Source: Epilithonimonas arachidiradicis (lineage in GTDB: Bacteria; Bacteroidota; Bacteroidia; Flavobacteriales; Weeksellaceae). From it: 64,000 nucleotides of DNA. Below, one piece after another: positions 11,099 to 62,952 of this stretch. The DNA is taken from positions 310,001-374,000 of the forward strand of contig NZ_RAQH01000003.1 in the NCBI RefSeq assembly GCF_003610695.1, in the 5' to 3' direction. Under the pieces are notes generated by a model that was not told the origin of the DNA, did not search any database, and saw nothing but the letters and a program-made list of their open reading frames with translations. How positions within the stretch are numbered: position 1 is the stretch's first letter; the number at the start of each line of letters is the position of its first letter. Both the position numbers and the translations under genes were made by a program.

Positions 11099-11191
11099 AA
11101 CCACAAAAGTAACAAAAGCTTTAAAATGCATGCGCCTTTCAAAAATTCAGAAAAGAAATGAAGTTCCAAATTCTTTGTGACTTTTGTGGTT
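11099..11191. repeat. MITE-like intergenic element, copy 1
   Basis: A 93-bp element lies between idi and the reductase gene. Its left end, AACCACAAAAGTAACAAAAG (11099-11118), is inverted relative to its right end, CTTTGTGACTTTTGTGGTT (11173-11191), with one mismatch and one indel. The interior is non-coding and shares a TAAAATGNAT stretch with copy 2. The arm itself is a tandem pair of CACAAAAG units. Confidence 0.85.
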
Positions 11192-11197
11192 GGAATT

Positions 11198-11707
11198 TCA
11201 ATTTAGCTGATTCCGATATTCAGCCCAAATGATTTTAAACCATTCTGTAAAATTGTCCGGATTTTCAGAAATTTCAGTTTGTAAATCAGGAATAGAAACA
11301 TACCGGATTTCCGAAACTTCTTCAGGATTCAAATCAAATTCTCCATCAAAGTTGCCTGTGAAAACATAATCCAACTCGTGTTCCCAAAGTCCTTCCCCAA
11401 CATCTGCTTTGTAAATAAAATGGAATTTTTCCGTCAACTCACAATCGATTCCTAATTCTTCCTTAATCCGTCTTGTCGCTGCATCCAGGTAAGATTCGTT
11501 TAGCCTTGGATGAGAACAGCAGGCATTGGTCCATTGGTTGGGTGAATGGTATTTCTCTTCGGCGCGCTTCTGCAAAAGCATTTCTCCCTTTTCGTTGAAC
11601 AGAAAAACCGAAAAAGCACGATGCAAAAGTCCATTTTCGTGCGCCTGCATTTTTTCCATTTGTCCCAAAACTTCATCCTGAGGATTGACCAAAACCACTT
11701 TTTCCAT
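11198..11707 (-). CDS. idi: Isopentenyl-diphosphate delta-isomerase, type I
   Basis: The 169-residue protein is a Nudix-fold type I IPP isomerase. It has VLVNPQDEVLGQMEK at the N-terminus, LLHRAFSVFLFNEKGEMLLQ, the active-site cysteine segment WTNACCSHPR (near residue 66) and the Nudix-like helix AATRRIKEELGI with its metal-binding glutamates. It interconverts isopentenyl and dimethylallyl diphosphate for isoprenoid synthesis (menaquinone, carotenoids). The stop codon comes 6 bp after the repeat at 11099-11191, which might affect its transcript end. Confidence 0.95.
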   Translation of the reverse strand: MEKVVLVNPQDEVLGQMEKMQAHENGLLHRAFSVFLFNEKGEMLLQKRAEEKYHSPNQWTNACCSHPRLNESYLDAATRRIKEELGIDCELTEKFHFIYKADVGEGLWEHELDYVFTGNFDGEFDLNPEEVSEIRYVSIPDLQTEISENPDNFTEWFKIIWAEYRNQLN

Positions 11708-12008
11708 AGAACAAAAATAAGGATTTTAAAACAAATTTTTAGGAGCTATTTCCCGCTTTCCGTTACAATCTTTTTCTTTTCCTTATGTGAAAGAAAAGAA
11801 AAAGGATTTCCACTACAATCGGGGCTATTAGATTTGTCTTTTTTAGAACATTTGTCGATAATTAGAGCATTATGTATTAAAATAATCAGCATAATATTTG
11901 TCATTCCGTAGGAATCTCGACAGCGACGTTTAGATTCCTACGGAATGACAAATATTATGTTATAATTTAGTTTTTGATAAACACTCAAACACTCAAACAC
12001 TCAGACAC
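11708..12008. other. Intergenic region between rsmA and idi holding two repeat structures
   Basis: About 300 bases hold no credible gene. The left part has a T-rich, purine-poor stretch upstream of idi. The right part holds the 70-bp perfect hairpin (11890-11959) and the 8-bp tandem repeat (from 11981). Promoter elements for idi (minus strand) should lie near 11710-11760 but I see no clear TANNTTTG box. Confidence 0.6.
11890..11959. repeat. Perfect 28-bp inverted repeat with a REP-type core
   Basis: Bases 11890-11917 are an exact reverse complement of 11932-11959, around a 14-base spacer (CGACAGCGACGTTT). The arms contain TCATTCCGTAGGAATCT, a motif I associate with dispersed intergenic repeats in flavobacterial genomes. 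It lies downstream of rsmA and upstream of idi, both on the minus strand, and could act as a transcript 3' end for rsmA or as a REP element. Only this copy is in the window. Confidence 0.88.
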
Positions 12009-12012
12009 TCAA
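11981..12012. repeat. Four-unit 8-bp tandem repeat overlapping the rsmA stop codon
   Basis: ACACTCAA occurs at 11981-11988 and 11989-11996, then ACACTCAG at 11997-12004, then ACACTCAA at 12005-12012. On the minus strand the first unit read supplies the TGA stop of rsmA at 12009-12011. Unit-number changes would move only sequence after the stop. Confidence 0.9.
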
Positions 12013-12785
12013 GCTCCCAAACTCACTTTCCACTCATTCGCAAACGCAATAAAATCAGCAACAGACAATTCTTCTGCTCGGATATCAAGGAAAGGATGAG
12101 ACTTTATATTTTCAGGGATACCAAGAACTTTCAGAGCGTTGCTCATCTTTTTACGTCTTTGCCCAAAACCAGCTTTTACGATTTGTTTGAATAGAACCTC
12201 ATTTCCAGCTAATCCTTCTTTCAAATTTCGGGTCATTCGGATGACGCCGGATTTTACTTTTGGAGGTGGATTGAAGACATTTTCGTGAACCGTAAAAAGA
12301 TATTCCACATCGTAATAAGCCTGAACCAAAACTGATAGAATTCCGTAATCTTTTGTTCTCGGTTTTGCGGCGGTTCTTTCCGCCACTTCTTTCTGGAACA
12401 TTCCGCTCATTTCTGGAACAAACTGGAAATTATCTATAATTTTAAACAAAATCTGAGACGAAATATTATAAGGAAAATTCCCAATCACAGCCAATTCTTC
12501 ATCAAAAACTTCCGGAATGTTGATTTTCAGAAAGTCGCCTACAAAATGTTGTTCTTCAAGTTTAGGGTAATGTTTTTTGAGATAGACAATAGATTCTTGG
12601 TCGATTTCTGCAACATAGATTTCTGACTCTTTTTCGAGAAGGAATTTTGTAAGTACGCCCATTCCCGGACCAACTTCCAAAACTTTTTTGTAGCCTTCAA
12701 AAGATAATGAATCTACAATGTTGCGTGCGATATTCTGGTCTGTAAGAAAATGTTGACCAAGATGTTTTTTTGCTCTAACGTCCAT
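12009..12785 (-). CDS. rsmA: 16S rRNA (adenine1518-N6/adenine1519-N6)-dimethyltransferase
   Basis: The 258-residue protein is RsmA/KsgA. It begins VRAKKHLGQHFLTDQNIARNI, has the SAM-binding motif VLEVGPGMGVLTKFLLE and the catalytic motif NFPYNISSQILFKI (NFPY in place of the more usual NLPY), and a C-terminal KAGFGQRRKKMSNAL helix typical of the family. It dimethylates two adenines in helix 45 of 16S rRNA during 30S assembly. Length is normal. The stop codon lies within an 8-bp tandem repeat, and a MITE-like repeat sits 35 bp upstream of the ATG. Confidence 0.96.
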   Translation of the reverse strand: MDVRAKKHLGQHFLTDQNIARNIVDSLSFEGYKKVLEVGPGMGVLTKFLLEKESEIYVAEIDQESIVYLKKHYPKLEEQHFVGDFLKINIPEVFDEELAVIGNFPYNISSQILFKIIDNFQFVPEMSGMFQKEVAERTAAKPRTKDYGILSVLVQAYYDVEYLFTVHENVFNPPPKVKSGVIRMTRNLKEGLAGNEVLFKQIVKAGFGQRRKKMSNALKVLGIPENIKSHPFLDIRAEELSVADFIAFANEWKVSLGA

Positions 12786-12820
12786 TTTGCAAAGATAGCG
12801 TAATTATAGTAGAAATTATA

Positions 12821-12937
12821 AACCACAAAAGTCACAAAAGAAAGCGTAAAATGGATTTCTAAAAAAAACAAAAAGTTTATCTATTAAGATTTTTTTTGAA
12901 TAGTTTGAGAAAATAAAACTTTGTGACTTTTGTGGTT
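12821..12937. repeat. MITE-like intergenic element, copy 2
   Basis: A 117-bp element lies between rsmA and the lactonase gene. AACCACAAAAGTCACAAAAG (12821-12840) at the left is the reverse complement of CTTTGTGACTTTTGTGGTT (12919-12937) at the right apart from one A. The interior is A/T-rich with no reading frame. It ends 8 bp before the stop codon of the lactonase gene. Confidence 0.9.
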
Positions 12938-12945
12938 AGAAAATA

Positions 12946-14073
12946 TCAATACATCTTCGTTTTCACACAAGTCACATTTTTGATGTGGACAGGTTTTCCA
13001 ACTTTCTTCAACATTCCGGTTTCTAAATTTCTTTTGAAAACAGTTACATCTTGCGAAATAACATTGGTCACAATAATGAACTTTCCAGTTTCATCAATCG
13101 CAAAAGTTCTTGGATGTTTTCCACCAGTTTTTTGATAACCGACAGATTCCAATTTTCCATCATTTAAGACTTTGAAAATTGCAATATTATTCTCTTTTCC
13201 TCTGTTCGTTGCATACAAGAACTTTCCGTCTGGCGAAATATGAACATCGGAACTTTCAAAACCTTCCTTGATTTTATCAGGATGTGTTGCAATTCTTTGG
13301 ATTTCTTTCAGTTTGTTATCAGAAAAATCATAAACTGAAATCATCCCAGCCAATTCCTCAATAGAATATGCTCGTTTTCCATCTTTGCTAAAAGTGATGT
13401 GTCTTGGTCCGCTCCCAGGTTTTGTATTGATGAAAGTATTTTGGCTATCAATTAAAGGTTGCTTCTGATTGGCATCAAATGGATATTGCAAAATTTTATC
13501 CGCTCCCAAATCTGCAAAAAGTACAGTTTTAAAATCGGGCGAAAAAACGACAGAATGCGTGTGTGCTTTCTCCTGCCTTTTCGCATCAACACCACTTCCT
13601 TCCGTGAATTTGAAATGTTGCGCTATCGAATCTATTTTACCATTTTCAAGAAGAGGAAAAACAGAAATAGTAGCTTGATTGTATGTTGCATTAATAAGCC
13701 ATTTTCCGCTTTTATCAACATTCACATAAACAGGATTTTCGCCGCCCGTTTTTTGTTGATTGAGAAAAGTTAATGTTTTCTTATCGGCATCAAATGCAAA
13801 AGAACTTACTGTTCCATAATTCGGAGTTTTGGCATCAGAAGATGCGTAAACGTATTTCCCGTCAGGCGAAACTGTGATATAACCTGGATTGATAACGTCA
13901 GAAGATGAAGCAACTTTAGTCAGTTTTCCGGTCTCGTGATCGAGTTCGTAAACATAAACCGCTTCCGAACCTTTGTCCCAATTGTAAGAACCAAAAAACA
14001 CAAATTGTTTTTGTGAATAAAGATTTGTGAAAATTAAGAAACTTAATAATAGAAAAATTTTTTGGAATTTCAT
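12946..14073 (-). CDS. Secreted lactonase-family beta-propeller protein
   Basis: The 375-residue protein has a signal peptide (residues 1-20, ending TNLYSQ) and a seven-bladed propeller of the Pgl/lactonase family, with repeats such as VSPDGKYVYASSD, DKSGKWLINATY, KPGSGPRHITFSKDGKRAY and ISPDGKFLYATNRG. Cytosolic relatives are 6-phosphogluconolactonases; a secreted copy must have a different substrate. The C-terminal tail is a divergent VTCVKTKMY. It lies 61 bp after the DUF5686 gene and is a clear paralogue of the gene at 16505-17617, so the three form one cluster. Confidence 0.85.
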   Translation of the reverse strand: MKFQKIFLLLSFLIFTNLYSQKQFVFFGSYNWDKGSEAVYVYELDHETGKLTKVASSSDVINPGYITVSPDGKYVYASSDAKTPNYGTVSSFAFDADKKTLTFLNQQKTGGENPVYVNVDKSGKWLINATYNQATISVFPLLENGKIDSIAQHFKFTEGSGVDAKRQEKAHTHSVVFSPDFKTVLFADLGADKILQYPFDANQKQPLIDSQNTFINTKPGSGPRHITFSKDGKRAYSIEELAGMISVYDFSDNKLKEIQRIATHPDKIKEGFESSDVHISPDGKFLYATNRGKENNIAIFKVLNDGKLESVGYQKTGGKHPRTFAIDETGKFIIVTNVISQDVTVFKRNLETGMLKKVGKPVHIKNVTCVKTKMY

Positions 14074-14134
14074 GGTGACGAATTAATCTGGAATTAAACA
14101 TTTACAGAATTAAACCTGTATTGTCACAAATTTC

Positions 14135-16447
14135 CTAAAAATTCATCTGGAAACCAAACTGAACACCGAATTTTCTTACATCGGTATTAGTTGTTTTGTG
14201 GTTCAGGTAATTTCCTCTCCAATTAAAATCGATTCTCATAATTCTGAAATTGCCCCAACCAATATTCTCAATTCCAAAACCATATTCGTAGTAAGGTTTT
14301 TCAGGTGTACTGAGATTAATGTTTCCAGCATTCATATTGATAGATTCTTGTCTCAGGCTTCCTACACCGGAGCGGAAAAATGCTACTTCTCTTAATTTTA
14401 GTTTTTTAATCAAAGGGATTTGAGATAAAATTTTTCCATTGAAATGATGTTCCAAAAACAGAACAGCATAAGAATCAGCAACAAATTCGTAATAATTCAT
14501 CAAAGAGAAAACACCGCGAACTAATCCATAAGATTGGTTGGCAGGCATCACATTTTGCAAAGCGAGTGGAAGCGCATCAAAGTTTTTACCAGCTTCAACA
14601 TTCGCAAATAATCTTCCCCAATTTCCTAAAATCACAGGTTGATAATAATAGAATTGTAATTTGTTGTAATTAAAATCAGAATTAAAAACGCCACCAACGC
14701 CTTTTGTGTATTTTAATATCAAAGTTGGATTATTGGCCAGAGCCGTCATCTCATAACGATCAACACCATAAGTGGAAAATTTGATTCCAGGTCTTGCGAT
14801 AATTGTTGCCGTGAATCTCGTATCATTCAAATCTGTTCGCAAAACGCCGCCTCTGTAATAATTGATATTGAATAAGTTGGAATCAGCAGATTCGATGCTT
14901 TGCTGTGTGGCATCCAGACGCAATTGGATATTTTTCCAAGGCTCAATACTTGTATAAAGACTTGTTTGTTTGACAGAACTCATAGAAGTCGTTTCGCCAC
15001 TGTTAAGTACAGAAGAAGAAGCAAAAGACCTTGTCATAATTCCCTCGTCCGTAGTCAACTGAACGCCTAATTGTAAAACATCTTTTCTAAAGCCTGCACC
15101 AACCTGAAAACGATTGGTCTTATTGAACATATATTTGGCTTCACCTCCAAATTTCCATTTTTGATCCCGGAAACCGTAAGCAGTGTAACCCTGGATTCGC
15201 CACATATCGTTTTTTCCGCGATAGGTTCTGAAACCGCCTCGGAGTCTTGTTCCTTCGATGTCGTTATAACCAAAAGACTGAAAAATATTCCCGAAATCAA
15301 TACCACTTTTCCCGATAGGAATATAGCCCGAGTTTCCGATTTCTACGATTTTGACAATTTTTTTGTACTTCGGATTATGTTCTAACTCGTCGTACATTTT
15401 GTAGATATTCTGCTGGCTGGTTGTTAGTGCTTCAGTTCTGTTGGCTTGCCAATATTCTTCGTCTTTAGCAACCATTTCATCTTCCGGAACAACGATTTTA
15501 TTGAGGAAGTCATCCGTTAATCCTTTGTCAAATTGATAATCGGAATAGTTGGCAACTCTTTTTGCAAGTACATATTTTGCTTTTTCCTTATCATTAAGAA
15601 CCAATTGCAGAGTTGTTTCATTTCTGACTGGGATAAAAGTAGAATCGTCAGGATTATCAAATTCCAAATCTGTAGCAATGTTTTTTACGAAATTGATATT
15701 AATTTTTTTATTCGTTTCCATCTCCACTTTCATCACATTGTATTTGTCCATAGAAATGTAAAGTCGCCCTTTCAGAGCCAATGCATCCTGATTTTTAGGC
15801 GTGAATCGAATCTCGTAAGATTTAACGGTATTAACTTCAATCGTATCCGTGATATTATAATCGAAAATACCGAAACCGTCTCTGGAGACAGGACTTACAA
15901 AACCGATATTCAGATAATTAATCGTGTTGTCATAAATATTGATATCCTGATACATATTCTGTATCGTCTTGGATACGATCTGATTGTTTTTCAATCCCGA
16001 AAGCCTTGTTGCAACCAAATCTTTGCGTTCTTTCTTCGGATTATTTTTACCATAAACATTGAAGATGCTTTCTGTGATGAAGATAGGAAGAACCGCTTTT
16101 CCCGCAATCTCGGAAGAATCATTGTATTTGAAAATGATAGAATCCATTCCACGAAACGCTTTTTTCTTGGTAAAAGCGCTATCAATATTGTCCAAACGAA
16201 AATCGATTTTCTCGTAAGTTTTGTATTGATAATCTTTGTGGAGCAGAAGTCCGTTGGATTTTTTCTTTTTCCAGACTTCCTGCATAATAGCATAAGCCGG
16301 GTTTTCTTTTTTGTTCTTATATTTTTTGACGCCTTTGATAACGACGTTTTCGATTTCATTCTCTTTTTCGGTTTGCGAAAACAGCAATCCGGAACAACAA
16401 ATCAGGAAAAAAGAGAGAATAAATTTATAATCAAGCATCGATTTCAT
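14135..16447 (-). CDS. DUF5686 family outer-membrane protein
   Basis: This 770-residue protein has a signal peptide (LSFFLICCSGLLFSQ) and then the DUF5686 opening, NVVIKGVKKYKNKKENPAYAIMQEVWKKKK. The usual N-terminal carboxypeptidase-regulatory (CarboxypepD_reg) domain is absent or reduced. The middle part is a beta-rich region, and from about residue 400 alternating strands end in FGVQFGFQMNF, an aromatic C-terminus typical of outer-membrane barrels. Function is unknown; related Bacteroidota proteins are often near TonB-linked systems. Start ATG at 16447; 16438 is a second option. Flanked on both sides by paralogous lactonase-fold genes at 57 and 61 bp spacing. Confidence 0.78.
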   Translation of the reverse strand: MKSMLDYKFILSFFLICCSGLLFSQTEKENEIENVVIKGVKKYKNKKENPAYAIMQEVWKKKKSNGLLLHKDYQYKTYEKIDFRLDNIDSAFTKKKAFRGMDSIIFKYNDSSEIAGKAVLPIFITESIFNVYGKNNPKKERKDLVATRLSGLKNNQIVSKTIQNMYQDINIYDNTINYLNIGFVSPVSRDGFGIFDYNITDTIEVNTVKSYEIRFTPKNQDALALKGRLYISMDKYNVMKVEMETNKKININFVKNIATDLEFDNPDDSTFIPVRNETTLQLVLNDKEKAKYVLAKRVANYSDYQFDKGLTDDFLNKIVVPEDEMVAKDEEYWQANRTEALTTSQQNIYKMYDELEHNPKYKKIVKIVEIGNSGYIPIGKSGIDFGNIFQSFGYNDIEGTRLRGGFRTYRGKNDMWRIQGYTAYGFRDQKWKFGGEAKYMFNKTNRFQVGAGFRKDVLQLGVQLTTDEGIMTRSFASSSVLNSGETTSMSSVKQTSLYTSIEPWKNIQLRLDATQQSIESADSNLFNINYYRGGVLRTDLNDTRFTATIIARPGIKFSTYGVDRYEMTALANNPTLILKYTKGVGGVFNSDFNYNKLQFYYYQPVILGNWGRLFANVEAGKNFDALPLALQNVMPANQSYGLVRGVFSLMNYYEFVADSYAVLFLEHHFNGKILSQIPLIKKLKLREVAFFRSGVGSLRQESINMNAGNINLSTPEKPYYEYGFGIENIGWGNFRIMRIDFNWRGNYLNHKTTNTDVRKFGVQFGFQMNF

Positions 16448-16504
16448 CTAGCATTAACCTTTTAATAACTATTTTTTATTTTAAATATTGTATCGATGAA
16501 AAAT

Positions 16505-17617
16505 TTATTTGCCTTTTTCATAAAAAATAACATTCACCGGTGCGCAAACGGGAATGGATTTGTTGGTTGGAGCCAGCTCGCCGGATTCCAGGTCTCTGCT
16601 GAAAATATTAATCCTGTTCGTATCCTGGTTGGCAATCAAAACCAGTTTATTATTAGGACTAATGGCGAAATTTCTGGGATTTCTGCCGGTTGTTTTGATT
16701 TGTTGGATTCTTTTCACTTTGCCGTCTTCGAGGATTTTGAAAGTAGTAATATCATCTGCATCATCACGGTTTGTCACATATAGGAATTTTTCATTGTCTG
16801 ATAAATGAATGTCCGCAGCTCTGAAATTAAATCTAACTTTTCTGGACAACAATGTCTCTTCCTGAATTAATTTGATTTTCCCGTCATCAAAACTTAAAAC
16901 AGACAAGTCGCCACTCAGTTCCTGAACAAGATAGAATAAATTTCCTGATTTATTGAACGCAATATGTCTTGGACCGGAACCTTTCTTCGCATCATATTCA
17001 TCAACTTTTTCAAGAACTTTATCGCCGCTTTTATTGTACTTGAACACATATATCTTGTCCAGTCCCAGATCGTTAGCTAAAACATATCGGCCGTCCGGAG
17101 AAAACTGAACCTGATGAATATGTGATTTTTCCTGTCTTTTCGGATTTACACCAACACCTTCGAATTTGATATTCTGGAAAACATCGGATAATTTTCCGTC
17201 AGCATAACGTTTAAAAACATTAATGCTTCCACCGGAATAATTCGCAACGATAAGATTTTGGTCATCAGAAATCAAGAAACACGGATCTTCACCTTGTGTT
17301 TTTCTTTCGTCTTTTTTGATAAGCGTTCCGTTAGCTTCGTCAATCGTAAAAGAAGTGACTGTACTTTTGTCGCCGTTTTCATTCACAGAAAAAAGGAATT
17401 TTTTATCCGGACTCAAACTCACAAAACTAGGATTGATGATATTTTCTGTATGATATTTGAGATTATACTGATAAGTGTTTTCATCAAAATCAAAAACATA
17501 AATCCCGCCGCTATTGCACTTCTCACTATTGGTGTAAGTCCCTACAATAATGGTATTCTGCGCTGATAAATTGACCATAAAAAATATTGAAAAAATAAAA
17601 CTGTTCCAGATTTTCAT
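16505..17617 (-). CDS. Secreted lactonase-family beta-propeller protein (paralogue)
   Basis: The 370-residue product has a signal peptide (FSIFFMVNLSAQ) and propeller repeats (LSPDKKFLFSVNENG, FSPDGRYVLANDLGLDK, KGSGPRHIAFNKSGNLFY, LSDNEKFLYVTNRDDADD). It ends CAPVNVIFYEKGK, closer to the family norm than its paralogue at 12946-14073. Both share the RQEKxHxHxVxFSPD and GSGPRHI signatures. As the first gene of the minus-strand cluster it probably carries the promoter. The substrate is unknown; a periplasmic sugar-lactone or organophosphate-lactone role is only a guess. Confidence 0.85.
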   Translation of the reverse strand: MKIWNSFIFSIFFMVNLSAQNTIIVGTYTNSEKCNSGGIYVFDFDENTYQYNLKYHTENIINPSFVSLSPDKKFLFSVNENGDKSTVTSFTIDEANGTLIKKDERKTQGEDPCFLISDDQNLIVANYSGGSINVFKRYADGKLSDVFQNIKFEGVGVNPKRQEKSHIHQVQFSPDGRYVLANDLGLDKIYVFKYNKSGDKVLEKVDEYDAKKGSGPRHIAFNKSGNLFYLVQELSGDLSVLSFDDGKIKLIQEETLLSRKVRFNFRAADIHLSDNEKFLYVTNRDDADDITTFKILEDGKVKRIQQIKTTGRNPRNFAISPNNKLVLIANQDTNRINIFSRDLESGELAPTNKSIPVCAPVNVIFYEKGK

Positions 17618-17738
17618 TCTACGATGGGCTGTTTTTATAGATAATAACTCAAAAATCGCCCGAATTTATTACAATAAAAATTAAGCCAAATAGCTTTTAA
17701 GATAAATTAACTTTATTTTTCACAGAAAAGTCAACAAA

Positions 17739-17770
17739 TTTGCTTTAATCGAATTGTAAATTTAATTTTG
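17739..17770 (+). promoter_or_regulatory. Promoter of ung
   Basis: TTTG (17739-17742), a 20-base spacer and TAATTTTG (17763-17770) match the Bacteroidota -33/-7 consensus. The -7 box ends 15 bases before the ung ATG, giving a leader of only about 8-10 bases. Confidence 0.75.
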
Positions 17771-17785
17771 TAAAAAATCTGAACA

Positions 17786-18430
17786 ATGACCTGGAAAGAA
17801 GTTCTGAAGCCAATTAAAGAAAGTGATTATTTCAAAAATCTTTGGGAGAAAGTAAAAATTCAATATAATTCGACCAAATGTTTTCCTCCGAAAAATGAGA
17901 TTTTCCGCGCCTTGGAACTCACGGAATTTGATGATGTGGAAGTGGTGATTCTAGGCCAGGATCCTTATCATAATGACGGTCAAGCGAATGGACTTTGCTT
18001 TTCTGTTTCAGAAAATGTCACTGCGCCACCTTCTCTCAAAAATATCTTTATTGAACTGAGAGAAGATATGGGAATCGAGAGAAAAAATAAAGATTTGCAG
18101 GATTGGGCGAAACAAGGTGTTCTCCTTCTCAATGCAACTTTAACAGTAAAAGCGCACGAACCAAATTCCCACAAAGACCTTGGATGGGAAACATTTACGG
18201 ATTATATCATTAAACAAATCTCTGATCAAAAGCAAAATGTGGTGTTCGTACTTTGGGGCGCTTTTGCACAAAAAAAAGCCTCGCTGATTGACGAGACTAA
18301 GCATTTTATCATTCAATCGGCGCATCCTTCACCATTTTCCGTTCATAGAGGTTTTTTCGGAAGCAAGCCTTTTTCAAAAATCAATAATTACCTTTTGGAG
18401 AAAGGAAAAAATCCAATTGTTTGGGGGTAA
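17786..18430 (+). CDS. ung: Uracil-DNA glycosylase, family 1
   Basis: The 214-residue enzyme carries the catalytic water-activating motif GQDPYHNDGQANGLCFSV (Asp near residue 59), the WAKQGVLLLNATLTV segment and the minor-groove loop HPSPFSVHRGFFGSKPFS near residue 182. It removes uracil from DNA as the first step of base-excision repair. The length is slightly under the common 220-230, but both motifs and termini are intact. It has its own short promoter and is followed by convergent genes. Confidence 0.97.
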   Translation: MTWKEVLKPIKESDYFKNLWEKVKIQYNSTKCFPPKNEIFRALELTEFDDVEVVILGQDPYHNDGQANGLCFSVSENVTAPPSLKNIFIELREDMGIERKNKDLQDWAKQGVLLLNATLTVKAHEPNSHKDLGWETFTDYIIKQISDQKQNVVFVLWGAFAQKKASLIDETKHFIIQSAHPSPFSVHRGFFGSKPFSKINNYLLEKGKNPIVWG

Positions 18431-18476
18431 TTAAGTTTTAGAGTAAGAGAATTCTAGAGTTTATTATCTCATAGAT

Positions 18477-18887
18477 TTACTCTTCTTTCTCATATTTAAG
18501 AGTCACACTTGGCGCTTCTTCTTTTCCTCCAGGATAAGGTTTTACTTCTTGCACTGTGAATTTATAACCCGCATAATTAAAAGATTTGGTAACTTCTTTT
18601 GGTAAGAAATCTCTTGTTGCGACTTTGATGTCTTTAGTATCTTTTCCTGAAAATGTATTTAGATTCACAATCGCAATACCTTCCCAAACACAAGTTACAT
18701 TGGCAGGACAACGGCTGTCTTCGATAATTTCTTTAAATTCTAAACTCGTCTTTGAATTTGGAATCGTAACCTTTTTGTTGACTCCAAGTCTAATAATATT
18801 ATCTGATGTTGAAGTTTGAGATTGTGTTTTGCAATTGCTCATCAACAAAAGGATAGGTGCAAATAAAAGTGCTTTAAATTTCATCAT
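18477..18887 (-). CDS. Hypothetical lipoprotein
   Basis: The 136-residue protein has a lipoprotein signal ending in the lipobox LMSNC, so it is likely anchored in a membrane. The mature part has a recurring flavobacterial motif, EDSRCPANVTCVWEGIAIV, with two cysteines that may form a disulfide. I do not know a function for this family. Two ATGs (18887 and 18884) are possible starts. It is 9 bp downstream of the DUF456 gene on the same strand, which suggests a shared transcript. Confidence 0.75.
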   Translation of the reverse strand: MMKFKALLFAPILLLMSNCKTQSQTSTSDNIIRLGVNKKVTIPNSKTSLEFKEIIEDSRCPANVTCVWEGIAIVNLNTFSGKDTKDIKVATRDFLPKEVTKSFNYAGYKFTVQEVKPYPGGKEEAPSVTLKYEKEE

Positions 18888-18896
18888 TCAAAAATT

Positions 18897-52758: not shown

Positions 52759-52766
52759 AAATAAAT

Positions 52767-53525: not shown

Positions 53526-53642
53526 ACCACAAAAGTCACAAAAGAAAGAAGGGAAATAAAGTTTTTAAAGTACAAAATAATAAAAATACTTTTTTAAACT
53601 TTAAAAATTTACTACAATTAAATCTTTGTGACTTTTGTGGTT
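53526..53642. repeat. MITE-like intergenic element, copy 3
   Basis: A 117-bp element lies between the kinase and response-regulator genes. Its left arm ACCACAAAAGTCACAAAAG (53526-53544) and right arm CTTTGTGACTTTTGTGGTT (53624-53642) are near-exact inverted copies. The interior holds a further imperfect inverted pair (AGTTTTTAAAGTA and TACTTTTTTAAACT). Confidence 0.9.
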
Positions 53643-53652
53643 TATTATATGA

Positions 53653-54837: not shown

Positions 54838-54869
54838 TTCAAAAATAAGCTTTTGAGATTAGAATCAAA

Positions 54870-55601: not shown

Positions 55602-55761
55602 TGTAATCGTTTTAATTTCTGATTCAAAAGTAGAATTGGCAGAAACGAATTCAAATCAAAATCGGTGAAAGAGAAATTTTATCGGTTAGAATTCTACTTT
55701 TTTCCGATGAAATAAATTCGTTTTCAAATAATATTTTAATTTTAATGAATAAAACCTGACT

Positions 55762-56865
55762 ATGTCTATCAACAGAAGAGATTGGCTGAAAACTGCTTTT
55801 TTTGGAAGTGCTGCTTTAACACTTTCGCCATTAGAGCTTTTGGCAAAGGAGACCCCTAATTTCAATGAGTTAAAAAACAGTAACGAAGCCATTCGGCTTT
55901 GCTTTAACGAAAATCCGTTTGGAACTTCACCAAAAGCTTTGGAATCGATGCAAAAAAGTCTCAATCTTTCTTCGATGTATGATTTTAAATTGGCGGATGT
56001 TTTATGTGAAAAATTAGCCGAGAAAAATCAACTTAAGAAAGAAAACATTTTAGTTTCTGCTGGTTCATCTTTCCTTTTGGAATTGATTACAAAATTTGTT
56101 TCTCAGGAGAATGGGCATTTCATTATCCCGAATCCTTCATTCACCATCTTCGAGCCTATTGCAGAGTTTTTGGGAATGTCAAAAACAGTTGTTGCTTTGG
56201 ATGAAAAGAAAAGGATCAATCTTGATGCTATGAGAGATTTGATTAGAAAAAGCACAAGGCTGATTTATATCTGTAACCCGAATAATCCAACCGGAGATTT
56301 ACTTTCAAGAGAAAAAATTGTACGATTTATAAAAGCTTTACCAAGTCACATTACGATTTTGGTAGATGAAGCTTATATTGAGTTTACGAATCAAAAATCA
56401 TTATCAGATTTGGTTGATATTTATCCGAATCTGATAATTACCAGAACCTTTTCCAAACTTTATGGGTTTGCAGGCGCAAGATTAGGTTATGCAATCGGAC
56501 ATCCTGGAACAATTAAAAATCTTAAAAAACTTCAAAGCTGGAGTGGTGCAGAAATAAGTGTTGTGACAATGGCTGGTGCAATCGCGGCAATGGAAGATCA
56601 GGAATTTATTTCTAAAGTTTTAGATAATAATCAAAAAGTGAAAGATTTTACTGTTTCGGAATTTAATAAAAGAGGAATTAAAACCATTCCGTCTTCTGCT
56701 AATTTTGTTTATTTTTCTTTGGAAAATTACAAAGGCGATTATTTCAAAAAGTTGAAGGATACAAAAATCCTTGGTGGAAAAACTTATGAGGAAGAAGGGA
56801 AGTGGACGCGGATTAGCTTGGGAACAATTGAAGAGATGGAGAGGTATTTTGAAGCGATTTCTTAA
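55762..56865 (+). CDS. PLP-dependent aminotransferase with twin-arginine signal
   Basis: The 367-residue protein resembles histidinol-phosphate aminotransferase (class I/II): VSAGSSFLLELI, ICNPNNPTGDLLS, LVDEAYIEF and the PLP lysine segment TRTFSKLYGFAGARLGYAIG. Unlike cytosolic HisC it begins with NRRDWLKTAFFGSAALTLSP, a twin-arginine (Tat) export signal, so it should be folded with PLP and exported to the periplasm. The substrate is unknown. It stands alone, divergent from the CPBP gene. Confidence 0.85.
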   Translation: MSINRRDWLKTAFFGSAALTLSPLELLAKETPNFNELKNSNEAIRLCFNENPFGTSPKALESMQKSLNLSSMYDFKLADVLCEKLAEKNQLKKENILVSAGSSFLLELITKFVSQENGHFIIPNPSFTIFEPIAEFLGMSKTVVALDEKKRINLDAMRDLIRKSTRLIYICNPNNPTGDLLSREKIVRFIKALPSHITILVDEAYIEFTNQKSLSDLVDIYPNLIITRTFSKLYGFAGARLGYAIGHPGTIKNLKKLQSWSGAEISVVTMAGAIAAMEDQEFISKVLDNNQKVKDFTVSEFNKRGIKTIPSSANFVYFSLENYKGDYFKKLKDTKILGGKTYEEEGKWTRISLGTIEEMERYFEAIS

Positions 56866-56952
56866 TGTGAAATTTATTAATAAATTCCTTCCAAAGTAGA
56901 GATTTAAAAATGATTACTGGAAAATGGGGATTTTTGAATTGCTTGAACTTCA

Positions 56953-57825
56953 TCAAGCCAAAATATTACTAAACTCCTTCCGATACTGCGACGGACTTTT
57001 CTGCGTATGCTCCTTAAAAGTTTTGTTGAAGTAACTGAAATTATTAAATCCACTATCAAAACAAACCTCGGTAATACTCATTGGTTGTTCTGCCAAGAGC
57101 TTTAGAGAATGCGTGATTCTATATTCATTTACAAATTGAGTAAATGTTTTGTTCGTAATTTTCTTGAAATATCGGCAGAAAGAAGGAACCGTCATATTGG
57201 ATAATTCTGCCACAGTTTCCAAAGTGATTTGCTCCTTAAAATGGTCTTTTACGTAGTTGAAAATCACACTGATTCGGTCGTTATCTTCCTTTTGAGTTTG
57301 CAGATAATATTTTGAAGCATTCAGGATTTTGTAATCCTGGGTCTGGGATAATTGGTTCAGAATCTCAATCAGAATAATTAGTTTGTTCAGGGATGTAGCT
57401 TCTGTCAAGGCATCAATTCTTGGTTTCAGCGTTTTTTTAATTTGTTCGCCGTAGACAATTCCGCTTTTTGCTTTTTCCAATAATGCTGAAATCCGCATCA
57501 TTTCCGGCGCTTTCCAAAACTGCGAACCCAGAAAATCCATTGAGAACTGTATCACCACTTCATATTCGTTTTTGGTATTTTCATTCGTCATTCCACAATG
57601 TGGCAAATTGCTGCCAATGAGAATCAAATCACCATCCGTAAAATAAGAAATGTTGCTCCCAATCTGCCGTTTCCCTGAACCTTTGTGCACAAAGATCAAT
57701 TCAATCTCCGGATGAAAATGCCAGAAATTACTCTTAATATTTTCATTTCTAAAATATTTGAGACAAGTAAAACTACTGCCGACATCGGGACTTACAGTTT
57801 CCAGAACCGGATTGTAATGTTTCAT
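56953..57825 (-). CDS. AraC family transcriptional regulator with cupin domain
   Basis: The 290-residue protein has an N-terminal cupin region (FWHFHPEIELIFVHKGSGKRQIGSNI) and a C-terminal AraC DNA-binding domain with two helix-turn-helix units: ITLETVAELSNMTVPSFCRYFKKIT and SITEVCFDSGFNNFSYFNKTFKEH. Such regulators in Bacteroidota usually respond to sugars or stress ligands. No obvious target operon is beside it. Confidence 0.93.
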   Translation of the reverse strand: MKHYNPVLETVSPDVGSSFTCLKYFRNENIKSNFWHFHPEIELIFVHKGSGKRQIGSNISYFTDGDLILIGSNLPHCGMTNENTKNEYEVVIQFSMDFLGSQFWKAPEMMRISALLEKAKSGIVYGEQIKKTLKPRIDALTEATSLNKLIILIEILNQLSQTQDYKILNASKYYLQTQKEDNDRISVIFNYVKDHFKEQITLETVAELSNMTVPSFCRYFKKITNKTFTQFVNEYRITHSLKLLAEQPMSITEVCFDSGFNNFSYFNKTFKEHTQKSPSQYRKEFSNILA

Positions 57826-58036
57826 AGTTAGGTTTTATTCTATTAATTTTTCTTGTTTTCAAACACGGCAATAGAACAAAATTACGGAATTAATATTATA
57901 TGTCTTAAATTGTCATATTTTTCCTGTTAACATTTATTTAATGTTAATATAGAACATATTTTTGAAAATTCAATTGTATCATAGCATTGCTATCGTATCT
58001 AAATTTGCTTCATTATTAATCAGTAAATCAAGTATT

Positions 58037-58633
58037 ATGAAAAATATAGTAAAACTAAGTTTGATAGTTGGTGCAATGCTAATTTCAATGGGTATGTCGG
58101 CAAAAGATAAATTCTTTTCTTTGTCTTTGACAGAAGCAAGTTCTAAGACACTTCGTTTTGAGATTTTCAATGCGGAAAATGTTTCGCTTTATTTCTATAA
58201 CGACAGAAAAGATGAGATCTATTCAGAAAATATCGGGAATAGAGAGAATGTTGAAAAATCTTATGATCTTTCTACATTAGCTGAAGGTGATTATTTTCTG
58301 GTAGCTGAGTCGGATTTCAAAATCGAAAAATATAAAGTAACGATCGATAAAAATGGAAATGTAACTGCGGCCAAAACGCCGGTTCTGGCTTTCAACAAAC
58401 CGGAATATACGATTGAAAACAACATCGTGAAATTGCATATGAGTAATGTGAACGATGCGGTGACTGTAACGGTATCTGACCTTTCCAACACCGAATATTA
58501 CAACAAATCTGTTAGATCCAGCAATGGCGAAATCAATTTGAAATTCGATTTGAATACGAATAATTCACCTGCTTATCTCATTAGCGTAGAAAGAAACGGT
58601 GATGTTTTTAACAGACTGATTACCCTGAAATAG
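58037..58633 (+). CDS. Secreted hypothetical protein
   Basis: The 198-residue protein has a signal peptide (KLSLIVGAMLISMGMSA). The mature portion is beta-rich with two similar blocks of about 75 residues (ESxxxxLRFEIFNAENVSLYFYNDR and KLHMSNVNDAVTVTVSDLSN). The tail PAYLISVERNGDVFNRLITLK recalls the T9SS sorting-tail pattern but is too short to assert. I do not recognise a family. The start is ATG 58037; the frame extends upstream only through TTG. Confidence 0.65.
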   Translation: MKNIVKLSLIVGAMLISMGMSAKDKFFSLSLTEASSKTLRFEIFNAENVSLYFYNDRKDEIYSENIGNRENVEKSYDLSTLAEGDYFLVAESDFKIEKYKVTIDKNGNVTAAKTPVLAFNKPEYTIENNIVKLHMSNVNDAVTVTVSDLSNTEYYNKSVRSSNGEINLKFDLNTNNSPAYLISVERNGDVFNRLITLK

Positions 58634-58665
58634 TTTCTTTAAACTAAGGTTATATATTATTTTCG

Positions 58666-58697
58666 AAAAGCCTCATAAACTATTTATGAGGCTTTTT
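58666..58697. terminator. Terminator between the secreted protein gene and the glycosyltransferase gene
   Basis: AAAAGCCTCATAAA (58666-58679) pairs exactly with TTTATGAGGCTTTT (58683-58696) around CTA, with T and A tracts usable on both strands. Confidence 0.93.
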
Positions 58698-58702
58698 TAT
58701 GA

Positions 58703-59701
58703 TTAATGAAAATGTTTCGGGAAAGCTTCTCTCGGCGATTGCTTAAGGATATTTAATTGAAACCAGGATTTCAGGAAACCATAACCATAAGAAAACATTT
58801 GGATATAGGTTGAGATAATTGCCATTGATGCAATGCTGATGTTTCTCGTCACCACTAAGGCGTGGAAAAAAACGAGAAAAGTATAAAGTCCGTACAGAGC
58901 GAGAATCAAACCATTTCCCCAAACAAAATAATGGATGACACCGACGACATAGCCTAATAAGAAAATGCTTGGAAACCAGAATGTTGGTTTTACATATTGT
59001 GGATGCCTTTGATTAAGAATCGGTCTTGCACAACCAAATTGATACACTTGTTTTGAAAACTTTCCAAAATCTGTTCTGCGTTTGTGATAGACGCCGATAT
59101 TATCGTAAAACGTTGTTGTGTAGCCATTTTCCCAAAGTGTCATAGACAAGTCCGGATCTTCACCGATTCGCATTTCGGAAAATCCACCGACTTTAAGAAA
59201 AATTTCTTTGTTAACCCCCATATTGAAACTTCTCGGCTGGAATTTGGTCACCGCTTTTTTATTGCCACGGATGCCGCCAGTTGTGAAAACTGAGGTCATA
59301 GAATAAGAAATGGCTTTCTGCATCAGATTGAAACCTCTGTGCGCTTTGTCCGCACCGCCAAAAGCATCTGCAGGATTTTCTGTGAGATTTTTCTTGATGT
59401 TTTCTATATAATCTGTTTCTACAATCACATCAGAATCTACAAAAACCAGCCAATCATTTTTGGCTCGTTTTGCACCGTAGTTCCTGCTCAATCCCGGACC
59501 GGAATTATCTTTTCGGAAAAACTGAATATCCAGCTGATCTTCAAATAATTCCACAGTCGGAAGAAGCTTTATTAATGAACCATCATCCACAACAATGACT
59601 TCAAAATCTTTATCGGTTTGACGTGATAATGAATTCAGAAGTTCGAAGAGTTCGTCTTTTCTGTTGAATATGGCGATAATGATGGAGATTGTTGGATTCA
59701 A
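58703..59701 (-). CDS. Glycosyltransferase family 2 protein, TTG start
   Basis: The 332-residue protein has the GT2 core: ISIIIAIFNRKDELFELLNSLSRQ, EVIVVDDGSLIK, WLVFVDSDVIVETDYI (DxD) and GEDPDLSMTLWENGY. The C-terminal third has two membrane helices (YVVGVIHYFVWGNGLILALYGLYTFLVFFHAL), as in membrane-associated polysaccharide synthases. The start is a TTG at 59701: an in-frame stop lies five codons upstream and there is no ATG before the first beta strand. The acceptor is unknown. Confidence 0.88.
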   Translation of the reverse strand: MNPTISIIIAIFNRKDELFELLNSLSRQTDKDFEVIVVDDGSLIKLLPTVELFEDQLDIQFFRKDNSGPGLSRNYGAKRAKNDWLVFVDSDVIVETDYIENIKKNLTENPADAFGGADKAHRGFNLMQKAISYSMTSVFTTGGIRGNKKAVTKFQPRSFNMGVNKEIFLKVGGFSEMRIGEDPDLSMTLWENGYTTTFYDNIGVYHKRRTDFGKFSKQVYQFGCARPILNQRHPQYVKPTFWFPSIFLLGYVVGVIHYFVWGNGLILALYGLYTFLVFFHALVVTRNISIASMAIISTYIQMFSYGYGFLKSWFQLNILKQSPREAFPKHFH

Positions 59702-59744
59702 ATTAGAAATAAATTATATGATAATGATTCTCAAAAATATGGAA

Positions 59745-60101
59745 TTATATTTTCAATAATAGAATAATTAATGAAAGAAAAATTGAGCTTGAAATTAAAC
59801 TAATTACAAAACTTGAAACCGTTAAGGAGTGAATGATTTTATATTTATTCAGAATTAATATTAATCCAAATGAAAATAATAATGAACCTCCAAAACTTAT
59901 TAAAAATGAAATGAATAGTTTCTTCAATTCAAAGAAATCTGATTTGAAGAAATAGAGTATCAATCCCGAAGCTATTAATAATAATATTGAAAACAAAATC
60001 ATTTTCCGATTGATTGGGTCAATGTCCACTTTGTTTTCTTCTCCATTTCCAATAAATCCAGACAGAGAAAATAATTCAAATATAAAATCTAAAAAATTCA
60101 T
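59745..60101 (-). CDS. Small membrane protein coupled to the THUMP methyltransferase gene
   Basis: The 118-residue protein has three hydrophobic helices (about residues 34-52, 64-82 and 90-116) and an acidic N-terminus. I do not recognise a family. Its ATG overlaps the upstream methyltransferase stop in an ATGA tetranucleotide, so the two are translationally coupled despite having no obvious functional link. Base composition is very AT-rich. Confidence 0.6.
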   Translation of the reverse strand: MNFLDFIFELFSLSGFIGNGEENKVDIDPINRKMILFSILLLIASGLILYFFKSDFFELKKLFISFLISFGGSLLFSFGLILILNKYKIIHSLTVSSFVISLISSSIFLSLIILLLKI

Positions 60102-61258
60102 TCTTTAATTTTATGTACTTTTTTCGTTCCATCATACATCTCATAATGCAAAAACCGCGTTTCCAGTTTTCCGTTAAATAATTTGATTTTTCTCGAAGGT
60201 CTTAGTCCTATTTTTTTCGACGCATCCAGATCGGCAGAAATCAGCCAGGCCAAAGTATTTGGATAATGTTGTTTAAAAGTATCACCGATTTTTTTGTAAA
60301 AATCATCATCATTAATACTGATTCTCTCGTCATAAGGCGGATTGAAAACCATCAATAACGGGAACATATCTTTCTCTGATTCAAAAAAGTTTTGTTTTCT
60401 GACTTCGATAATGTCTTCCATTTCTGCAGCCTCAATATTGGTTCTTGCAGCATTCAAAGCCCTGGCATCCATATCGTAACCCACAATTTTCCCGGTGAAT
60501 TCTTTCACCCTGTTGATGCGGAATTCTTTGATCTTTTGGAACAAATCTTCGTCATAATTTTTCCAGTTTTGGAAAGCAAATTCTTTTCTGAAAATCTGTG
60601 CCGGCAGATCCAGGGCAATCATTGCTGCCTCTATTAATAATGTTCCGGAACCACACATCGGATCCAGGAAATTACCTTTTCCGTCCCAGCCTGCCAATTG
60701 TAACATTCCGCTGGCCAAAACTTCGTTGATCGGCGCAACAGTCTGTTCTTTTCTATAACCACGTTTGAAAAGGGGATCGCCTGAACTATCCAGAGAAATC
60801 GTCACCAATTCTCTATCGATATGAAGATGAAATTTGATATCCGGATTGTCTTTGTTAACATTCGGTCTGATGTTATGCTTTTCCTGAAAATAATCGACGA
60901 TCGCATCTTTCATTTTCAAAGTCATAAACTGAGAATGGCTAAATCTTTCCGAGTTTACAGTCGCATCAATCGCAAATGACTGATGTTTCTCCAGAAACTG
61001 ATCCCATTCAAACTTGAATAATTTATCGTAATATTTAGATTCATTAAAGGCTTTGAATTCTAAAATCGGAATAATAATTTTAAGCGCAGTTCTGCAAGAA
61101 TAATTGAGTTTGTAAAGGAAACCCAAATCACCTTCGCAAGTCACCGCACGATTTCTGGCTTCAACTTTTTTACCGCCTAATTTTTTAACTTCTTCGGCCA
61201 AAACCTGTTCCAACCCGAAAAAAGTTTTGATCTGTATCTGCAGATTTTCTGTATTCAT
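60098..61258 (-). CDS. THUMP-domain class I RNA methyltransferase (RlmL/YpsC-like)
   Basis: The 386-residue protein starts with an RNA-binding THUMP module (residues 40-150) and continues with the UPF0020 methylase: FLDPMCGSGTLLIEAAMIAL (SAM motif) and VFNPPYDERI (catalytic NPPY). This matches the 23S rRNA guanine-2445-type N2-methyltransferase family. The rRNA site is inferred from family. The last 4 bases overlap the next gene on the same strand. Confidence 0.93.
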   Translation of the reverse strand: MNTENLQIQIKTFFGLEQVLAEEVKKLGGKKVEARNRAVTCEGDLGFLYKLNYSCRTALKIIIPILEFKAFNESKYYDKLFKFEWDQFLEKHQSFAIDATVNSERFSHSQFMTLKMKDAIVDYFQEKHNIRPNVNKDNPDIKFHLHIDRELVTISLDSSGDPLFKRGYRKEQTVAPINEVLASGMLQLAGWDGKGNFLDPMCGSGTLLIEAAMIALDLPAQIFRKEFAFQNWKNYDEDLFQKIKEFRINRVKEFTGKIVGYDMDARALNAARTNIEAAEMEDIIEVRKQNFFESEKDMFPLLMVFNPPYDERISINDDDFYKKIGDTFKQHYPNTLAWLISADLDASKKIGLRPSRKIKLFNGKLETRFLHYEMYDGTKKVHKIKE

Positions 61259-61354
61259 CCCACAAAGATAATAGATATTTAGATGATAGATAATAGACTT
61301 TTGAACTTATAGAAAATCTCTTCCTTAATCTGCGGGTCTCACATCTATTTTCCT

Positions 61355-61362
61355 TATTTTTG
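61355..61362 (+). promoter_or_regulatory. -7 promoter box just upstream of the SAM methyltransferase gene
   Basis: TATTTTTG matches TANNTTTG and ends four bases before the ATG at 61367, so the transcript would be leaderless. No clear -33 element is visible. Confidence 0.5.
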
Positions 61363-61366
61363 CAAG

Positions 61367-62092
61367 ATGCAATGGTTCGAAGAATGGTTTGATACACCAT
61401 ATTATCATATTTTATACAGCAACCGGGATTATCAGGAAGCCGAAAATTTTCTGAATCTGTTAACCGGTTTTCTGAAACTCGAGAAAAACTCAACAATAAT
61501 TGATTTGGCTTGCGGAAAGGGCAGACATTCGGTGTATCTGAATAAGCTTGGTTACAATGTTCTAGGACTGGATTTGTCCGAACAAAGTATCAGTTATGAT
61601 AAGCAATTCGAAAATGACGCTTTGAAATTTCGAGTTCACGATATGAGAAATAGGATTGAAACCGAACCTGTTGATGCGGTTTTTAACTTGTTTACAAGCT
61701 TTGGATATTTCGAAACGGAAGAAGAAGACAAAAGTGTTTTTCGCTCTGTTTCCGATGCTCTGAAAAATGAAGGTTATTTTGTCCTTGATTTCCTGAATGC
61801 AGAATACGTAAAAAGTGTGATTACACCAAAAGCTACTGTTGAAAAGGAAAACATCACATTCAATATCAAAAAACATATTGAAGGCGAATATATACTGAAG
61901 GAAATCGATTTTGAAGACCAGGGAAAGCAATTTCATTTCTTTGAACGTGTTAAGCTGACTTCGCCTGAAAGAATCCTGAAATTTGCTGATGAATTTGGAT
62001 TTGAATTAATCCAGCGCTGGGGCGATTATCAGCTTAATGATTTTGATGAAAAGAGTTCCCAAAGATGTATTAACTTATTTAGAAAACGTTAG
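61367..62092 (+). CDS. Class I SAM-dependent methyltransferase
   Basis: The 241-residue protein has a standard methyltransferase core: IIDLACGKGRHSVYLNKLGYNVLGLDLSEQS (motif I and II), FRVHDMRN and AVFNLFTSFGYFETEEED (motif IV). No extra domain identifies its substrate. Small metabolite or protein methylation is possible. It is divergent from the THUMP methyltransferase gene, with a short shared promoter region (61259-61366). Confidence 0.86.
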   Translation: MQWFEEWFDTPYYHILYSNRDYQEAENFLNLLTGFLKLEKNSTIIDLACGKGRHSVYLNKLGYNVLGLDLSEQSISYDKQFENDALKFRVHDMRNRIETEPVDAVFNLFTSFGYFETEEEDKSVFRSVSDALKNEGYFVLDFLNAEYVKSVITPKATVEKENITFNIKKHIEGEYILKEIDFEDQGKQFHFFERVKLTSPERILKFADEFGFELIQRWGDYQLNDFDEKSSQRCINLFRKR

Positions 62093-62159
62093 AAGTTAGA
62101 AGATGGATGGTGAAAGATTTCCAGTATTTTACATCCAGCTTCCATTTTAAATTTAGTTT

Positions 62160-62855
62160 ATGATAATTATTCTATTAATTTTAAGTGTTCTGATCGGTGT
62201 TTTTCTCGGAAAGTATTTCGGGAGCAAACAACAATTCGCTAAAAATCTTTTGATTCTAAGTGCCGGTTTCCTGATAACGATTTGTTTAAATGAGGTTTTT
62301 CCGGAAGTTTATCATTCCGAAGACCATAATATCGGGATTTTTGTGATCCTCGGTGTTTTGATCCAGATGTTGCTGGAAAGCTTGACCAAAGGTTTTGAAC
62401 ACGGGCATCTTCATCATCATTCGGATGAACACTCGATTATTCCTGTTGCTTTGATTATCGGACTGTTTGTTCACGCTTTTATAGAAGGGATCCCTTTGTC
62501 ACACGAGAAAGAAACGTTATCTCCTTATTTGCTAGGAATTCTGTTTCATAACATTCCGATTTCCTTTGTTTTGGGAAGTTTCTTAGCACACAGCAAAAAT
62601 TTCTCTACCAAATTCTGGCTGATTGTTCTCGTTTTTGCCTTAGCTTCGCCTTTGGGAATGCTTTTAGGAAAATACTTTGACGAAAATCTGAAAGTCTATT
62701 TCTTAGCCGTAGTTGGTGGGATTTTCCTTCATATTTCTTCCGTCATTATTTTTGAAAGCAACAAGAACCACAAGATGGACTGGCAAAAGATTGTTCTGGT
62801 CATTTGCGGAATTGTTTTGGCATTAGGCGGACATTTGTTTCATCATCATCAATAA
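62160..62855 (+). CDS. ZIP family metal transporter
   Basis: The 231-residue protein has eight helices and a histidine-rich cytoplasmic loop, GFEHGHLHHHSDEHS (near residue 85), followed by the conserved helices VHAFIEGIPLSH and LGILFHNIPISFVLGS that form the metal path. It likely imports zinc or another divalent cation. A basic tail HLFHHHQ ends the protein. A decayed repeat copy follows the stop. Confidence 0.9.
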   Translation: MIIILLILSVLIGVFLGKYFGSKQQFAKNLLILSAGFLITICLNEVFPEVYHSEDHNIGIFVILGVLIQMLLESLTKGFEHGHLHHHSDEHSIIPVALIIGLFVHAFIEGIPLSHEKETLSPYLLGILFHNIPISFVLGSFLAHSKNFSTKFWLIVLVFALASPLGMLLGKYFDENLKVYFLAVVGGIFLHISSVIIFESNKNHKMDWQKIVLVICGIVLALGGHLFHHHQ

Positions 62856-62857
62856 AA

Positions 62858-62952
62858 AACCACAAAAGAAATATTGAAATTATTTTAATTTCTATTATCA
62901 ACTGGATTTTTGAAATTACAAATTTGAAGAGAAATTTTGTGATTTTTAAGGT
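62858..62952. repeat. MITE-like intergenic element, decayed copy 4
   Basis: AACCACAAAAGAA (62858-62870) at the left and TTTTGTGATTTTTAAGGT (62935-62952) at the right keep parts of the arms of copies 1-3 in inverted orientation, 95 bp in all. Both arms have mismatches, so this is a low-certainty, probably old copy. Confidence 0.5.

Follow-up and report, generated by a model that had tools for sequence, protein, structure and literature searches.

We analysed a 64,000-nucleotide stretch of the Epilithonimonas arachidiradicis genome (contig NZ_RAQH01000003.1, positions 310,001 to 374,000; hereafter, the window) that contains four short elements with inverted ends, and found that the same ends enclose a GxxExxY gene elsewhere in this genome. 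The window copies are probably gene-less relatives of this gene-bearing element, the protein of which would recognise, cut and mobilise DNA bounded by such arms. In our best reading, the family resembles in its logic the REPIN-RAYT systems (doublets of repetitive extragenic palindromic (REP) sequences and their REP-associated tyrosine transposases), with a RecB/Cas4-like nuclease replacing the transposase and presumably effecting the mobilisation. If so, an orphan family of repeats would gain a partner in an equally orphan protein family, and the whole would be a system of dispersed repeats driven by a RecB/Cas4-like nuclease. To our knowledge, the intergenic repeats of the CACAGAG/CGCAAAG kind that recur in many genomes have no known owner. 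In the excerpts of the literature returned by our searches, GxxExxY was named only in passing, in two papers, PF13366 appeared in one, no link to repeats was found, and one of six arm strings occurred, in two papers unrelated by title.

The window copies are short, bear terminal inverted repeats and lack a complete open reading frame (ORF) (Table 1). The arms of the three good copies read AACCACAAAAGtCACAAAAG ... CTTTGTGACTTTTGTGGTT in inverted orientation, and each arm consists of two CACAAAAG units spaced nine bases apart. An earlier sequence-only reading of the window had described this tandem pair correctly and had placed the three copies to within a base. With up to three mismatches allowed, the window contained seven arm matches against 0.49 expected, a number that none of 100 shuffles reached, and six of the seven were arms of elements 1-3. 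Predicted RNA folds of these three elements were far better than those of shuffled sequences (z of -4.1, -6.3 and -8.8, the last for element 3), and that of element 4 was not (z of -1.07). Element 4, which the same reading had listed as a weak fourth copy, represents an insertion that is real although its arms have decayed: across 23 genomes of the genus its site was filled in three, empty in nineteen and occupied by other DNA in one (G008). The orthologous gap measures 15-56 bp in the nineteen empty genomes and 165 bp in the window genome, and in G015 and G009 it spans 183 and 187 bp with recognisable, better-preserved arms. The DNA missing from the empty site of G022 extends to approximately 62974, and element 4 is flanked on both sides by AATAAAAAA, a single case in AT-rich DNA.

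Table 1. Positions of the gene-less elements in the window and of the gene-bearing element in the same genome.
Element	Position	Strand	Left arm	Right arm	Remarks
Gene-less element 1	11099..11191	.	11099-11118	11172-11191	
Gene-less element 2	12821..12937	.	12821-12840	12918-12937	
Gene-less element 3	53526..53642	.	53526-53544	53623-53642	
Gene-less element 4	62858..62952	.			Arms decayed
Gene-bearing element	C6:147150-147687 (window's genome)				538 bp; same arms around a 135-codon GxxExxY gene

Throughout the 3.65-Mb genome, we counted 83 arm matches with at most one mismatch and none for a reversed control pattern. They form 40 paired elements, some with one poor arm, of which 39 measure 42-174 bp (eight below 70 bp and 31 of 76-174 bp) and one measures 538 bp. 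The elements are thus not confined to the window, and arms also pair at consistent spacing in relatives, two points on which the sequence-only reading had made its proposal depend. The 538-bp copy encloses a gene of the TIGR04256 GxxExxY/PF13366 family, which has a PD-(D/E)XK nuclease fold; the earlier statement that the element has no reading frame therefore holds for the window copies and fails for the family. Gene-bearing and gene-less copies of one genome share an identical arm type. The interiors of the 28 copies of 80-180 bp are very diverse yet weakly related (p = 0.002), and in the tests for gene remnants the subterminal similarity of the short copies was weak (uncorrected p = 0.014 and 0.076). 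The site of the 538-bp element could be read in 21 of 23 genomes by orthology: five genomes have the full element, two (G002 and G013) retain both arms and the first part of the GxxExxY gene, five have arm remnants around another unit type, six lack arms and three have another gene. G002 and G013 thus document one case of derivation by internal deletion from the gene-bearing form.

Inverted arms are a regular feature of GxxExxY genes. Scoring arms as significant when the flanks of a gene paired better than shuffles at p 0.01, we found them at 66 of 94 GxxExxY genes from the window genome and its relatives and at 51 of 79 loci from named GTDB species genomes, two sets with no locus in common, versus 2 of 164 ordinary control genes; the control count comes from one run, and the counts for the 94 loci and for the 52 four-helix-bundle loci described below were repeated with equal results. 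Both the 94 and the 52 loci include the window genome and comprise the best-scoring matches plus others taken in list order, a sampling that favours intact genes. The named set comprises the best 80 of 578 matches less L280, which had too little flank, and is mainly Bacteroidota; significant arms also occurred in metagenome-assembled genomes filed as Melioribacter/Melioribacteraceae, Planctomycetota, Pyrinomonadaceae and Methylobacter, where binning errors are possible. Direct repeats exceeding 50 shuffles were fewer than inverted ones (33 of 94 GxxExxY and 8 of 52 four-helix-bundle loci). The window genome has three further family genes, L031 and L033, both intact, and the broken L034/L035; significant inverted arms of the CGCAAAG and ACACAAAG types flank L031 and L034/L035, respectively, and a sixth family match fell under the family cut-off. 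No GxxExxY relative was found among 50,697 phage records, and 8 of 72,556 plasmid records contained one. Among the six plasmid loci examined, inverted arms were detected at p 0.005 in Bernardetia, Bacteroides and Gemmatirosa (Gemmatimonadota), all complete plasmids, and at 0.05 in Treponema, and none at the Sphingomonas and Fusobacteria loci.

Moreover, the arms are coupled to the protein that they enclose. GxxExxY arms are mostly built of 8-10-bp units (best period 8, 9 or 10 in 50 of 66), their outer end is often TTTAACC[A/G]C, and in 55 of the 117 elements an arm contains AACC[A/G]C. Units are alike within an element and unlike between elements (mean arm score 41 versus 15, the latter for elements with proteins 35-45% identical), and arm similarity tracks protein identity (Spearman 0.34, permutation p = 0.002), increasing from approximately 55% identity upwards. 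At least two C[A/G]C units were present in 91 of 117 GxxExxY elements versus 0 of 28 four-helix-bundle elements. Of the genes that share 71-77% DNA identity with that of L032, seven are located at CACATAG arms and two (G005 and G010) at CACAAAAG arms; a group at 67-68% DNA identity has ACACTTAAGT arms, as read in three of its four members. The ACACTTAAGT unit also occurs without a gene at the element 1 site of G004 and G011, both of which carry such a gene. A test for tandem units was positive at p 0.05 in only 20 of 66 GxxExxY arms and in 18 of 28 four-helix-bundle arms, the former perhaps because the aligned stretch extends past the units.

Arm copy number follows the presence of a matching gene. 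Counted on both strands with at most one mismatch, CACATAG arms number 22-60 in the seven genomes that have a GxxExxY gene at such arms, and 0-21 in the remaining sixteen (p = 9e-5). Sister pairs on a three-gene tree that differ in carrier state gave 22/21, 38/21, 42/9, 57/0 and 40/9 (carrier first), five of five in the expected direction; the first is a near tie in which the carrier's assembly is 73% complete, and the zero in the fourth comes from an assembly that is 88% complete. For CACAAAAG arms, the corresponding pairs were 80/42, 42/36 and 35/26. Genomes that lack the gene retain some copies, as would be expected of relics. Carrier state was called from DNA matches and from arms read at the gene, G004 and G009 included, and non-carriers may hide missed carrier genes; the downstream arm in G009 is in direct orientation, and in G001 the 538-bp element is truncated where its contig ends.

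Where arms were significant and both neighbours could be seen, gene-bearing elements were co-directional with the two neighbours in 58 of 63 and 46 of 49 cases (104 of 112 in total), compared with 74 of 156 ordinary genes (Fisher p = 2e-16). The outer arm edge was at most 25 bases from the stop codon of the co-directional upstream gene in 47 of 59 and 34 of 47 cases. An annotated example is the order radA, GxxExxY, next gene in Bacteroides finegoldii; on a Sphingomonas parapaucimobilis plasmid (L421), the gene lies between fabD and fabG, with repeat-like units upstream and no arm pair. Gene-less copies, the neighbours of which were called by a simple ORF picker, showed no clear excess in co-directional gaps (27 of 39, versus 49 of 76 gaps of at least 80 bp). 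Those in such gaps were nearer the stop codon in 21 of 26 cases (p = 0.001), as read by hand with the 538-bp element included (21 nearer, 5 farther, 1 tie). A comparable stop-side preference is described for REPs (PMC3733652), and it could arise through selection against damage ahead of start codons.

The sites turn over among congeners, and the check for empty sites that the sequence-only reading had proposed found them repeatedly. At the element 1 site, readable in 19 of 22 congeners, seven genomes have the same arm type (decayed in at least two), seven have other types and five have no arms across 41-73 bp. The element 2 site, readable in 18 of 22, has the same type in one (G020), is empty in one (G017, 43 bp) and holds other inserts in 16: eight of CGCAAAG type, five of a third type and three longer inserts. 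Unit types at both sites were assigned by eye, and the orthologous site of element 3 was not found in the stretches of relatives examined. At the orthologue of element 2 in G004 (L134), a CACATAG element is nested in a CGCAAAG element, with inner bounds AGAGCCTGTTTAAA...TTTAAAACAGGCTCT. Furthermore, GxxExxY gene pairs 70-85% identical have different flanks in 412 of 480 comparisons.

As judged from modelling and motif comparison, the enclosed protein has the predicted fold and the catalytic motifs of a small RecB/Cas4-like PD-(D/E)XK nuclease. The residues G.G..E..Y, D, E.K and Q...Y were common to 18 of 18 aligned homologues; with E or Q permitted at one position each, D..ExK and QxxxY were found in 117 of 117, and 112 of 117 genes had an open frame with intact motifs. 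The PF13366 match was well over the cut-off, and a match to Cas_Cas4 (E 5e-4) was under it. An AlphaFold2 model (pLDDT 93.8) gave 4ic1 (SSO0001), which we take to be a Cas4, as a best fold match in the PDB (probability 0.92-1.00), along with lambda exonuclease (0.75-0.87), and a sequence search of the PDB returned no match up to E 1. The dN/dS of the window genome's gene against four orthologues is about 0.03-0.08, indicating that the protein is kept for something; the family name gives a motif and not a function.

These observations suggest the following course of events. A single gene of about 120-150 codons would be framed by inverted arms built from 8-10-bp units, and this gene-bearing form would settle behind the stop codon of one gene and ahead of the start of the following gene on the same strand. 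In this sense orientation the gene could be expressed by read-through, and a promoter of its own may be unneeded. The protein would recognise the units found in arms of its own lineage and cut DNA at or near them, after which repair would copy or move the arm-bounded segment, mostly as gene-less forms handled in trans; short palindromes may arise by fold-back. The lack of detectable target-site duplications argues against an ordinary cut-and-paste transposase, and old copies may have lost theirs.

Several results weigh against mobilisation by the GxxExxY protein. The carrier contrast is weaker for CACAAAAG arms (median 36 versus 25.5, p = 0.02), with several non-carriers reaching 36-44. Arms were not significant at 28 of 94 and 28 of 79 GxxExxY loci, among them the intact L033, where CGCAAAG units are visible by eye and pairing gave p = 0.33, and the correlation between arms and proteins is gone once the pairs are restricted to 50% identity or less (rho -0.06). 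Gene remnants were not found within the short copies of the window genome (ORF p = 0.98). The proposed check for target-site duplications gave nothing significant in a mismatched-pair test (p = 0.06-0.23 for 37 copies of the window genome and 0.23-0.76 for the gene-bearing sets); an offset scan yielded one small excess among approximately 300 combinations, which we discounted. Fold matches of the protein were weak, with a best E of 0.0018 (none at or below 0.001) and TM scores of 0.42-0.50. Gene pairs at least 85% identical share flanks in 56 of 58 cases, which indicates that the gene moves rarely, and no movement was seen within a species. Finally, stable residence under purifying selection may also mean a host function, and the stable site and the selection recall the domesticated RAYT of REPIN systems (PMC8049555).

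A host-beneficial RNA element, in which the arms form an mRNA hairpin for processing, stability or termination, the nuclease is domesticated and mobility lies in the past, is a less probable account that still deserves weight. It would explain the strong RNA folds of the good copies, the positions after stop codons and why the protein, at a fixed site, is under purifying selection. However, the free bases of the two arms agree in only 7 of 21 copies of at least 70 bp in the window genome (7.8 expected) and in 2 of 14 such pairs read by hand from a partial arm list of genus genomes (4.9 expected), although they agree in 9 of 9 tested short palindromes of 47-62 bp, where composition alone gives 5.9. 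RNA pairing as the cause of arm matching was thus unsupported in copies of at least 70 bp, and the disagreement suggests that the arms are read separately by a protein and not kept for pairing. Congener sites that are empty, refilled or swapped likewise speak against this account. It is rather unlikely that another enzyme, for example an IS200/RAYT-type transposase, spreads the copies and that GxxExxY is a passenger within the same ends. A four-helix-bundle protein in the same kind of architecture suggests that the enclosed gene could be cargo, and RAYT genes can have flanking terminal inverted repeats (PMC3733652), but the arms are specific to each family, track protein relatedness and vary in copy number with whether the matching gene is present. 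Chance palindromes or ordinary transcription terminators, to which the AT-rich arms and the 5 of 39 copies called convergent (one of them window element 1, miscalled via a spurious ORF) might point, are scarcely credible against the empty reversed control, the clean empty sites and the majority of copies between co-directional genes.

The elements resemble several known systems in part. Like REPINs, they are short extragenic inverted doublets, with a partner gene long inherited vertically, more copies where that gene is present and a location close to the upstream gene's 3' end (PMC3116915, PMC8049555, PMC3733652). Unlike them, the partner is a PD-(D/E)XK nuclease where RAYT is an HUH transposase, iterated 8-10-bp units form the ends, the gene is located within the same arms, and the GTAG/CGTC tag was found in 0 of 40 copies when six bases outside and inside each arm were checked. 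With miniature inverted-repeat transposable elements (MITEs) derived from insertion sequences, they share gene-less copies, inverted ends and, at one site, derivation by internal deletion; they differ in that no general target-site duplication was detected and no classical transposase was seen, although no genome-wide transposase search was made. The earlier designation as a MITE or REP-like element is apt in outline as regards inverted ends, copy number, presence and absence at orthologous sites within the genus and internal deletion; it does not extend to a strict REP, and target-site duplications like those of a classical MITE are unsupported. Free-standing homing endonuclease genes are small nuclease genes lying co-directionally between genes, as here, but the present elements have iterated arms and dozens of gene-less copies, and no target sequence is known. 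Short iterated units of unknown role also make up the heptamer repeats found between genes in Beggiatoaceae, Cyanobacteria and certain Bacteroidetes (PMC4679880) and the intergenic multicopy sequences of Geobacter metallireducens, a fourth set of which is said to resemble multicopy sequences of many genomes (PMC2700814); as described in these excerpts, both are unlike our elements in being mostly direct arrays with no partner gene. At gathering thresholds, Rfam returned no family for the elements and only Flavo-1 nearby.

A parallel family with a different protein, which like the partner gene and the co-directional gene-bearing copies had not been foreseen from the window sequence, has the same architecture. 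Four-helix-bundle genes (S23/IVS-type, TIGR02436) located among protein genes had significant inverted arms at 28 of 52 loci, with a best period of 7 bp in 24 of 28, and all 28 arm-flanked genes were co-directional with both neighbours. In the window genome, three such loci (L037, L038 and L039) have inverted heptamer arms. Stand-alone GIY-YIG genes in relatives (28 of 30 loci tested) had inverted flanking repeats of various kinds at 19 of 28 loci and direct ones at 15 of 28; several are of the TGTCATTCCGTAGGAATC kind, which is present in the window too. Only 17 of 28 were co-directional with both neighbours.

We tentatively raise the possibility of an undescribed class of operon-lodged elements, in which unrelated small proteins within their own inverted arms insert in sense behind stop codons, make use of host transcription and give rise to gene-less copies, with 23S rRNA intervening sequences (IVSs) as members that landed in rRNA. 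Its members would be GxxExxY with 8-10-mer arms, the S23-type four-helix-bundle protein with 7-mer arms and perhaps GIY-YIG with palindromic ends, the last fitting less well in view of its orientation. The strict sense orientation of GxxExxY and four-helix-bundle elements would fit transcript-coupled or RNA-mediated insertion. IVSs with a four-helix-bundle ORF, which may be a special case, likewise hold a small ORF within inverted ends inside a host transcript; they differ in lying in rRNA, whereas the present loci lie between protein genes and the partner of the window copies is a nuclease. The origin of IVSs is described as unclear (PMC4990558), and the link between GxxExxY and repeats suggests one.

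Other repeats lie between elements 1 and 2 of the window. An Rfam Flavo-1 RNA (11745-11830, minus strand; 82.7 bits) is embedded in a stretch that is frequent in congeners and in the window genome (834-940 hits per query). A palindrome at 11894-11965, TTTGTCATTCCGTAGGAATC...GATTCCTACGGAATGACAAA, belongs to a second dispersed element (981-1070 hits per query), and in relatives comparable ends occur on either side of certain stand-alone GIY-YIG nuclease genes. Tandem ACTCAAAC units (AACACTCAAACACTCAAACACTC) occupy 11981-12012, and a similar unit adjoins the four-helix-bundle gene of L038. Four GIY-YIG genes, L359 (G000:C3:10062-10265; decayed), L372, L373 and L380, lie within direct repeats that by eye resemble duplicated tRNA sequence.

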